Below, piece after piece: positions 3,721-5,433 of a stretch of 22,059 bases of DNA (positions within the stretch are counted from its first letter, which is position 1; each line of letters begins with the position of its first letter). Origin of the DNA: a virus; IMG/VR virus record IMGVR_UViG_3300044620_000037, positions 1 through 22,059 of that record; one strand, written 5' to 3'. The notes under the pieces were generated by a model. It was not told where the DNA came from, did not search any database, and worked only from the letters and a program-made list of their open reading frames with translations. The position numbers and the translations under genes are program-made.

Positions 3721-4332
3721 TTACAACCAAGCAGCGTACTTCTTGGTCTTGAGTTTGCGGTCGTCGAGGCCGTGTGTACCACCATTGATGCGTTTTGTCA
3801 GTGCAAGTATTGAGGCGTCGTTTACGCCTTGGTCACAGATGCCCCACAGTTTGTTCCGGTCGAAGAACCATAGAGCACTTTCAAAGGCGAGTTCTGTGGC
3901 GACAAGGTCTGGGTTGTCCATCACTTCGGGGCGTCCGATGTACTTAGAAAACTCAAAATAGTTAGATTTTCCAGTGAGTTGGAGGGCACCCCTGCCCCGA
4001 AATTTCCATCCGTCGCCAGATGCTTCGTCACCATTACCCATGCGATTTGCATAGACGCGGTTGGCAATCTTCTCTGGCTTACGCTCGTAGGCACGAGCCA
4101 GCGCGTCGGTTGGAAAGTACTTACCGAATATGCCGCGCAAGCCCTTGGCACTGTAGTTCAGGTTCTCGCTGAACGCTTTGAAGTTGCCCGACTCATGTGC
4201 CGTTTGAGCAAAGAAATGCGCAGCGCGGTTCTTGTTCAGCTTGAAGTGAGCGCAGGCGGATTTCAATGTCCCCGGTCCGAACGCACCATCTGGATGGCAT
4301 CCGCATTTACTTTGTAGATTTATAAGGCTCAT
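3721..4332 (-). CDS. Endolysin, glycoside hydrolase family 19 (chitinase-like)
   Basis: Probably a muralytic enzyme that cuts the glycan strands of peptidoglycan at lysis. From ATG 4330-4332 the protein has 203 residues. That start overlaps the previous stop as ATGA; an in-frame TTG at 4350 is less likely. GH19 hallmarks are AHFFAQTAHESGNF (residues 38-51), with the presumed catalytic Glu47, and FRGRGALQLTGKSNY (111-125), which forms the substrate-cleft region. An N-terminal stretch (LQSKCGCHPDGAFGPGT, residues 6-22) recalls a small peptidoglycan-binding element. There is no signal peptide, so release would need the adjacent holin-like proteins. The length fits single-domain phage GH19 endolysins. 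Confidence 0.88.
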   Translation of the reverse strand: MSLINLQSKCGCHPDGAFGPGTLKSACAHFKLNKNRAAHFFAQTAHESGNFKAFSENLNYSAKGLRGIFGKYFPTDALARAYERKPEKIANRVYANRMGNGDEASGDGWKFRGRGALQLTGKSNYFEFSKYIGRPEVMDNPDLVATELAFESALWFFDRNKLWGICDQGVNDASILALTKRINGGTHGLDDRKLKTKKYAAWL

Positions 4333-4826
4333 TTGCCAGCACTCCGCCAATCAGGGAAATCATTTTCATCAACTACGCCGTCGCCGTTTGCGTCATAACG
4401 CAGGTCGTTGCGATACTTTTCCCAAGGCTCCATATCGTCATCTTCGTCTACTTCAGGTTCGTCGATAAAGACTGTGCCGTTCGGGTCGCTGTAAGGTACG
4501 AAAGCAGGTGTGGTCACGCCTAGTGGTGCTTCTGGTTCTGGCGCTTCTGGCTCTGGCGCAGGCTCTTTGTCCCGTGCATTAGCGTTGAGGCTCAAACCGC
4601 CAAGCAGGCCGACGAAAGCACCGATGATTGTCTGGAAGGCAGGATTAATCATCTCAAGAATGGCAGTGCTATCCAGAACTTCATTAGGGGCAAACAGACC
4701 TACGGCCAGTGTCAACACAACCACAAGGATAACTGCAGACAGCGTAACGATTGCCACGCGCACGACAAACTCAACGGTGTCATTGACACCATCGCTCTTA
4801 CTTTCAAAACTATTAAGGAAGCTCAT
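4329..4826 (-). CDS. Holin-like membrane protein with acidic tail and EF-hand-type loop, 165 aa
   Basis: An in-frame upstream extension exists, but ATG 4824-4826 (MSFLNSFESK) is preferred, with AAGGATAAAGAAG before it. Two hydrophobic segments (about 20-45 and 63-82) are followed by a long Pro/Glu-rich acidic tail (APEPEAPEPEAP, 90-101). Near the end, D145-D156 (DANGDGVVDEND) fits a canonical EF-hand or dockerin calcium loop, with acidic or Asn ligands at positions 1, 3, 5, 9 and 12. The second membrane segment (INPAFQTIIGAFVGLLGG) matches that of the upstream gene, so the two are probably paralogues. Overlap with the upstream gene (14 bp) and with the GH19 endolysin (4 bp) puts it in the lysis cassette. 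Holin or holin antagonist is inferred. Confidence 0.7.
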   Translation of the reverse strand: MSFLNSFESKSDGVNDTVEFVVRVAIVTLSAVILVVVLTLAVGLFAPNEVLDSTAILEMINPAFQTIIGAFVGLLGGLSLNANARDKEPAPEPEAPEPEAPLGVTTPAFVPYSDPNGTVFIDEPEVDEDDDMEPWEKYRNDLRYDANGDGVVDENDFPDWRSAGK

Positions 4827-5091
4827 CTTCTTTATCCTTCTTTTTCTTTTGCATAGCACCGCTGCCCTGCCCGGCCATAAGTCCTGCCAATGCACCTACG
4901 ATAAACGTAGCTATCGGGTTAATAAGCTTAAAAAACTCAGCGTCATTCGGGGACTGCCCCTCCATCGGCTGCGACACAAACACCAGTGAGTATAACACTG
5001 TAGCTACAATAAACGTGAGCGTCAGCGACAGCACGATGCCGACGATGAACCGCAGCAATTCCTCCGGCGTCCATTCGCTAGTGGGCTTCAT
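4813..5091 (-). CDS. Holin-like two-span membrane protein, 92 aa
   Basis: ATG 5089-5091 (MKPTSEWTPEELL) is preferred to an in-frame GTG four codons upstream that lacks a ribosome site. It overlaps the lipoprotein gene by 14 bp. Two membrane segments (about 14-41 and 59-78) are separated by a short polar loop (SQPMEGQSPNDAEFF). The tail is strongly charged (QKKKKDKEDE). Two spans plus a charged cytoplasmic tail is a common class II holin layout. The next gene repeats the INPxxxxI(V/I)GA pattern of the second span. The family is not certain; a holin is the simplest reading given the GH19 endolysin two genes later. Confidence 0.65.
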   Translation of the reverse strand: MKPTSEWTPEELLRFIVGIVLSLTLTFIVATVLYSLVFVSQPMEGQSPNDAEFFKLINPIATFIVGALAGLMAGQGSGAMQKKKKDKEDELP

Positions 5092-5266
5092 GTTCTTCTT
5101 CACCTGTATTTATCAACCACTCAGTGCAATAACCCATAGCGATACACCGAGGCTTCTTGCAGAGTTCATCTTCCCAATTTGCTGGGTCTTGACAATCATA
5201 GCGGTAGCGGTCTTCGCACCCCAAAAGTAGCAGCGAAGCCACGATAAGGGATGCGAAGCGCCACAT
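5078..5266 (-). CDS. Small phage lipoprotein, 62 aa
   Basis: ATG 5264-5266 (MWRFASLIV) overlaps the previous stop as TAATG. A longer in-frame opening upstream lies inside the preceding gene and is not used. The first 17 residues form a lipoprotein signal peptide with lipobox LLGC (Cys17). The mature part has five cysteines (CQDP, CKKPRC, MGYCTEW, plus the lipidated one) and an acidic end (GEEEHE). It should be anchored in an inner- or outer-membrane leaflet, which implies a diderm host. The gene sits just before the holin-like genes. An outer-membrane spanin (Rz1-like) is one possibility, but the protein is not proline-rich and no inner-membrane partner overlaps it, so the role is open. Confidence 0.75.
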   Translation of the reverse strand: MWRFASLIVASLLLLGCEDRYRYDCQDPANWEDELCKKPRCIAMGYCTEWLINTGEEEHEAH

Positions 5267-5433
5267 TAGTCTTGCTCGCCTACAGTTTCTTGAGCCGCTG
5301 CTGGCACTTGCGCTTCGGCTTGCTGCTTGATTTTTACTACGAGAGGCCATGCGCCGGAAGACGTGGGCAGATTGCCGAGCGTCTGAAGGACGGCGTTAAC
5401 TTCTTCGATGTTTAGGGTAAGCTTGATATCCAT
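5266..5433 (-). CDS. Conserved small phage protein, 55 aa
   Basis: A short gene read directly from the sequence: MDIKLTLNIEEVNAVLQTLG, then NLPTSSGAWPLVVKIKQQAE, ending VGEQD. Start ATG 5431-5433 overlaps the upstream stop as TAATG and has GGAG at suitable distance; its stop overlaps the lipoprotein start the same way. The protein is probably a helical hairpin around a PTSSGAWPL turn. Near-identical patterns (LTLEEVNxxLxxLGxxPTSxGxWPL) recur in phage structural regions, as far as I remember. Function unknown. The overlaps on both sides and the familiar pattern make it a real gene despite its size. Confidence 0.8.
   Translation of the reverse strand: MDIKLTLNIEEVNAVLQTLGNLPTSSGAWPLVVKIKQQAEAQVPAAAQETVGEQD

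Follow-up and report, generated by a model that had tools for sequence, protein, structure and literature searches.

A holin-like protein with a conserved EF-type loop at its C-terminus in environmental phages

Background

What sets the timing of holin action is a central open question of phage lysis; the inputs known to affect it are the holin concentration, the membrane potential and antiholins. The virus record IMGVR_UViG_3300044620_000037 of IMG/VR, the entire 22,059 bases of which were analyzed here (hereinafter, the window), raises the question of what a loop of the EF-hand type, typical of calcium-binding proteins, might be doing at the end of a membrane protein that is encoded next to an endolysin. 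This protein, denoted P0001, consists of a head with two predicted transmembrane (TM) helices and an acidic tail that carries the loop, and the putative metal ligands of the loop are conserved among its viral relatives. Our preferred interpretation, to which we would assign slightly less than an even chance, is that P0001 acts as a holin, or as the paralogous partner of a holin, namely the neighboring protein P0002, and has a cytoplasmic tail that binds divalent cations; metal binding, topology, holin activity and the trigger are all elements that we infer.

Results

The loop at the C-terminus of P0001

A sequence-only reading of the window had placed a calcium loop of the EF type at the C-terminal end of a holin-like protein, within a span (4329-4485) that corresponds approximately to residues 115-165 plus the stop codon. 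Translation confirms the 12-residue loop, DANGDGVVDEND, at residues 145-156 (positions 4359-4394), with D1, N3, D5, G6, D9 and D12, that is, with the geometry of an EF-hand loop, in which the ligands are located in positions 1, 3, 5, 9 and 12 and Gly in position 6. This bears out the original description. The parts of the protein are as follows.

4329..4826, minus strand: P0001, 165 amino acids (aa), holin-like protein with two TM segments and an EF-type module at the C-terminus
4572..4784, minus strand: two-TM head of P0001, helices 15-45 and 53-85 in the AlphaFold2 model
4443..4571, minus strand: residues 86-128, variable, acidic, Pro/Glu-rich and probably unfolded linker; predicted local distance difference test (pLDDT) <50 at 91-114 and 117-128
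4419..4454, minus strand: residues 125-136, loop 1, degenerate, EVDEDDDMEPWE; intact in 7 of the 199 distinct relatives
4344..4442, minus strand: residues 129-161, conserved C-terminal module DDDMEPWEKYRNDLRYDANGDGVVDENDFPDWR; block means of pLDDT ~80-87 (AlphaFold2)
4359..4394, minus strand: residues 145-156, loop 2, intact, DANGDGVVDEND; 12-residue EF-type loop

When a PROSITE-like EF pattern was used to assess chance occurrence, it matched 40 of 20,000 shuffled versions of P0001 and 15 of 20,000 of its tail; in the window, 161 stop-to-stop frames reach 60 aa or more, and the frame of P0001 was the only match among them.

Conservation and selection

Relatives of P0001 are encoded in 312 stretches of a collection of uncultured viruses, and a scan of genome contigs gave two short contigs from metagenome-assembled genomes (L097 and L098). 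Neither P0001 nor its tail had a match among 50,697 phage records; the many environmental phages with the EF-tailed protein are without a cultured relative in the phage collection searched. The tail is found on two types of membrane heads, head A (...NPAFQTIIGAFVGLLGGLSLN... and close variants) and the divergent head B (...DNKDVFGLLSYVMTSVVGAVAGSYATLMGMKG...). For a tail-blind sample, DNA patterns were used for the membrane head only, and whatever follows the head was then read; the loci from L099 upward were re-scanned with these patterns, duplicates were merged to distinct sequences, and proteins cut at a contig end (4 of the 122 head-A and 4 of the 120 head-B matches) were omitted. Among the matches listed, head A gave 122, of which 118 have a complete C-terminus and represent 93 distinct C-terminal parts; the loop is kept in 89 of the 93 (83 recognized by the automatic pattern and 6, which carry a non-Gly residue in position 4, read by eye), and the other 4 are tailless. 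The 120 head-B matches listed include 116 complete ones, and all 87 distinct C-termini among these contain the loop. Throughout the loop carriers of this head-selected sample, D1, D5, G6 and D12 are invariant, and positions 2, 4, 10 and 11 are variable.

The same pattern is apparent at the codon level. The 279 tail-bearing proteins with a recognized start reduce to 199 distinct ones, 198 of which fitted the spacing and were used to estimate the ratio of nonsynonymous to synonymous polymorphism (pN/pS). For the ligand codons, pN/pS is 0.006 (head A) and 0.016 (head B), and for the non-ligand loop codons (positions 2, 4, 7, 10 and 11), it is 0.29 and 0.31, respectively. Thus, the ligand codons vary synonymously but hardly otherwise and therefore, judging from codon variation, selection acts on the putative metal-ligand residues of the protein. 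Apart from the ligands, the conserved residues of the tail are P134, W135, E136, R139, D141, R143, F157, P158, W160 and R161. Conservation of the ligands in homologs, the sequence-level check that the sequence-only reading had set, accordingly came out in favor of the motif, and the EF-type tail probably binds a metal ion (Ca2+, possibly Mg2+).

The sequence-only reading had further described the loop as the only one present, although EF-hands usually come in pairs. A single intact loop is indeed all that P0001 has, but the acidic stretch that precedes it is a degenerate first loop, which is canonical in 7 of the 199 distinct full-length relatives (L212, L224, L226, L227, L229, L231 and L362). 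These canonical first loops, for example, DENGDGELQPWE or DLDGDGELQPWE, end in the same PWE and are found on both head types. The equivalent in the window has acidic residues in positions 1, 3 and 5, Met in position 8 and Glu in position 12 and has lost Gly6; from the first residue of one loop to that of the other, the distance is 20-21 residues. We infer that the tail is a compact two-loop module in which the first loop has in most cases degenerated into a stretch of acidic residues, as opposed to being an incomplete precursor.

Heads and topology

In the AlphaFold2 model, the two helices of the P0001 head are long and hydrophobic, as is characteristic of a two-TM holin. The 119 tail-bearing frames in L099-L217 include 92 with head A and 22 with head B, the remaining 5 being cut before the head, and no other head was found. 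Comparison of the full profiles of the two heads yields an E-value of 2e-46, in part via the shared tail, and P0002 is related to head A around TM2 (36 columns in hhalign, with a probability of 74.5% and an E-value of 2.7e-5). The occurrence of one tail with two heads and with differing upstream genes points to exchange of heads and neighbors around a stable tail. The best match of P0001 to the PHROG profiles has an E-value of 0.027 and belongs to a family of unknown function; one relative matched Pfam Phage_holin_3_6 (PF07332) with an E-value of 0.0031 and 18.0 bits against a cut-off of 28.4.

In 112 head-A and 87 head-B proteins, Lys and Arg together amount to 0.33 (A) and 1.00 (B) between the helices, 2.41 and 3.74 on the N-terminal side, and 2.06 and 1.83 on the C-terminal side. 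Because the segment between the helices is poorer in these residues than both flanks, the charge distribution suggests that both termini of P0001 face the cytoplasm (N-in/C-in). For the region that follows the second helix, the median net charge is -19 and the median number of prolines is 13 (n=199).

The lysis cassette

The genes around P0001 in the window are the following.

3721..4332, minus strand: P0003, GH19 endolysin (Pfam Glyco_hydro_19, E 2.6e-10; PHROG endolysin, E 1.6e-64)
4813..5091, minus strand: P0002, 92 aa, second two-TM protein, phrog_25359 (unknown function)
5078..5269, minus strand: small lipoprotein-like protein rich in Cys (...LLLLGCEDRYRYDCQDP...), preceding P0002
3542..3718, minus strand: protein of 58 aa that probably has one TM segment, immediately 3' of the endolysin gene; no family match in PHROG or Pfam; possibly a further lysis protein

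The P0001 gene starts within the end of the P0002 gene, with an overlap of 14 nucleotides (nt), and at its other end, the TGA stop shares bases with the ATG of P0003; such an ATGA start-stop overlap is present in 151 of 239 distinct proteins. Wherever more than 900 nt is available downstream (183 distinct tail proteins), a P0003-like GH19 endolysin is encoded there in every case, on the same strand and within 1.5 kb, and P0001 therefore is a lysis gene. Strict obligate pairing of the tail with endolysins of this type was considered as well and is rejected: some GH19 endolysins with as much as 76% identity to P0003 lack an EF-tailed partner although there is room for it upstream, and among the 51 distinct GH19 proteins from loci found by the endolysin scan only (38 with more than 700 nt upstream), a set tail-depleted by construction, the tail accompanies one. 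Nor is the head family limited to endolysin cassettes because five tailless head-A loci (L267, L268, L272, L273 and L278) have no recognizable endolysin neighbor in the stretch read. Three of these tailless proteins (L267, L273 and L278) are, by eye, near terminase-like or DNA-polymerase-like genes, apparently of other, larger phages.

The upstream neighbors differ between the two heads. P0002 was detected upstream of 47 of the 104 head-A proteins with room and none of the 74 head-B proteins; when loci are counted, a P0002-like protein is upstream in 39 of the 94 head-A loci with room. A single-TM protein of the SGKIAI type occupies the upstream position in most head-B loci (66 of 74) and in few head-A loci (8 of 94); this protein (SSGKIAII..WAGFQVYQQFLTM), with a probable coiled region, is conserved in L103, L132, L226, L229 and most head-B loci. 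Another small single-TM protein (MAGNLSTVELIGQLWP.. type) is encoded between the EF-tailed gene and the endolysin gene in L105, L131, L152 and L059. The Cys-rich lipoprotein-like protein, with the motif C-x-DRYRYxCQDPxN... or a variant of it, is found repeatedly in the position immediately before P0002-type proteins (the window, L388, L411, L394 and L221); since L221 and L411 also have separate spanin-like genes, it probably is not the outer spanin. In MW202520.1, a tailless relative of the head, unannotated, lies between a spanin-like pair and a lysozyme. Small unannotated two-TM frames upstream of endolysin genes were noted in this record (L220, 2986-3207) and in MW202675.1 (L219, 2974-3243), and these are likely missed holin genes.

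Discussion

The combination of a two-TM head, a place in front of the endolysin gene and a tail under selection for its ligands is consistent with the interpretation of P0001 as a holin, or a partner of one, with a cation-binding cytoplasmic tail. The mechanism that we prefer, which is speculative, is as follows. In the intact cell, where free Ca2+ is low, the strongly negative tails would keep P0001 proteins apart, holding lysis back; upon the first breach of the membrane, incoming Ca2+ would fill the loop, and the tail, neutralized and folded, would then favor clustering and full lysis. Lysis by such a calcium-gated holin, with the cytoplasmic EF-type tails restraining clustering until a breach admits Ca2+, would be a self-reinforcing switch; this fullest form of the interpretation we consider unlikely. 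To our knowledge, calcium gating of a holin is not a known input to lysis timing.

Several observations weigh against a cation-binding holin tail. The ligand columns are not perfect: position 3, typically Asn, is Thr in 3 of the 83 head-A loops that the automatic pattern recognized, position 9, typically Asp, is Thr in 5 of the 87 head-B loops, and L006, outside the head-selected count, has Val in loop position 12. In addition, Asp in position 12 may favor Mg2+. The AlphaFold2 model of P0001 has a predicted template modeling (pTM) score of 0.33 and shows only helical turns in the tail, at 134-137, 142-144 and 154-156, that is, helices of 3-4 residues, short of full EF helices; the model of the two-loop relative L226 resembles that of P0001. 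In Pfam, P0001 reaches 13.0 bits with EF-hand_1 against a cut-off of 25.4, and the best EF-hand score of a relative is 20.7 bits against 25.9. A Foldseek search of P0001 against PDB gave no match; no chain had Z of at least 2 in the fold comparison of L226 (3 chains compared); and in the sequence search of solved structures, the best E-value for P0001 was only 1.3. The two-loop tail of L212 weakly matched ordinary EF-hand proteins in the latter search (best E 0.0013), and the BFVD fold search found two relatives of P0001 without a stated function. Because the predicted helices are short and the Pfam scores are below the cut-offs, the tail is EF-like rather than a proven EF-hand. With regard to the head, no holin family of PHROG or Pfam is matched at its cut-off, and P0001 itself had no holin match. 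Finally, an endolysin of this type is preceded by only a P0002-type protein in L388, L411 and L394, which shows that cassettes of this kind do not, as a rule, need the EF-tailed protein.

These last loci bear directly on the main rival for the role of the protein, namely, that P0002 is the holin and P0001 an antiholin, another regulator or an accessory protein, which we consider quite possible, although less than probable. P0002-type proteins are also encoded near endolysins in Manatee Spring phages, and there is a parallel for an accessory role in the mycobacteriophages Girr and NBJ, where two unequal holin-like proteins are reported to cooperate (PMC13056207). The patchy presence of P0002 in front of head-A proteins and its lack of detection in front of head-B proteins speak against this view, given that the EF-tailed protein and the endolysin are the constant elements of the set. 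For the mechanism of the tail, the main rival is that the metal is structural, with Mg2+ or Ca2+ always bound, and that the module, as a small docking domain, holds the endolysin or another lysis protein at the membrane. The conserved non-ligand residues, from P134 to R161, suit a binding surface or a small core, the endolysin always adjoins in the tail-bearing set, and the P0001-type loop resembles those of dockerins, with weak Dockerin_1 scores in relatives; the occurrence of related GH19 endolysins without an EF-tailed protein argues against such docking, and we regard it as unlikely.

Two further explanations fit the data less well. If the tail were periplasmic (N-out/C-out), the loop would be permanently loaded with Ca2+ and could help to fix the protein in the envelope. 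Acidic tails may cross the membrane driven by the proton motive force, but the distribution of Lys and Arg favors N-in/C-in in both head types, as does the KKKKDK run after the second helix of P0002, which makes this arrangement quite improbable. Likewise, an acidic, low-complexity tail could resemble an EF loop by chance or through decay and bind nothing: acidic composition makes such patterns likelier, and loop 1 is largely decayed (not canonical in 192 of the 199 relatives). However, only 40 of the 20,000 shuffles match, and the ligand columns are nearly invariant while synonymous codons change freely. A chance motif is ruled out by the shuffles, the conserved ligand columns and the codon-level selection, the conservation in particular making a chance origin of the loop untenable, and we deem this explanation as a whole exceedingly improbable.

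If the conserved tail of P0001 binds metal, it would add an ionic input to lysis timing in many environmental phages; metal ions may then have a part in controlling the moment or the manner in which these phages burst the host. A likely role is also offered for a protein family that is not named by the profile libraries searched.

Comparison with known systems

Like the class II type of two-TM phage holins, P0001 is small, has two TM segments, overlaps the endolysin gene and has a probable N-in/C-in topology; unlike these holins, it belongs to no family above the cut-off and carries a long acidic linker and a metal-loop module at the C-terminus. With the EF-hand and other Dx[DN]xDG calcium loops (PF00036, PF13405 and PF13202), it shares the 12-residue loop, D1, N3, D5, G6, a hydrophobic residue in position 8, D9 and an acidic residue in position 12, and 7 of the 199 relatives have two such loops; it differs in the scores below the Pfam cut-offs, the short predicted helices and Asp instead of Glu in position 12. 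In calmodulin, the loop starts are ~36 residues apart, and those of the P0001 family are much closer (20-21 residues). The loop is of the DxNGDGxVxxxD type, as in type I dockerins (PF00404), but Dockerin_1 of Pfam did not match P0001, and the relatives score 11.6-14.6 bits against a cut-off of 22.9. Two entries from uncultured Caudovirales phages, found via BFVD, are direct relatives: A0A6J5NMR5 of UniProt (165 aa, 45% identity to P0001) and the uncharacterized A0A6J5MK48 (62% identity), both database entries only, with no lysis role in the BFVD row. Because the former is named 'EF-hand domain-containing protein', the motif is already flagged in a database name. The window also encodes a portal protein, a major head protein and an SU10-type adaptor. 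Its portal protein is ~42-44% identical, over ~3/4 of its length, to the portals of Pag-Yong1, CRP-901 and HTVC027P. Among the titles and abstract openings returned by literature searches, no paper on a holin with an EF-hand was found, and passages in PMC9694453, PMC5795418, PMC5889276 and PMC11915829 concern other proteins. A precedent is LysGH15, a staphylococcal endolysin with an EF-hand-like calcium site (PMC4022735): in both cases, an EF-like calcium loop is part of a phage lysis protein, but in LysGH15 the loop is in the enzyme, whereas in P0001 it is on a membrane protein.
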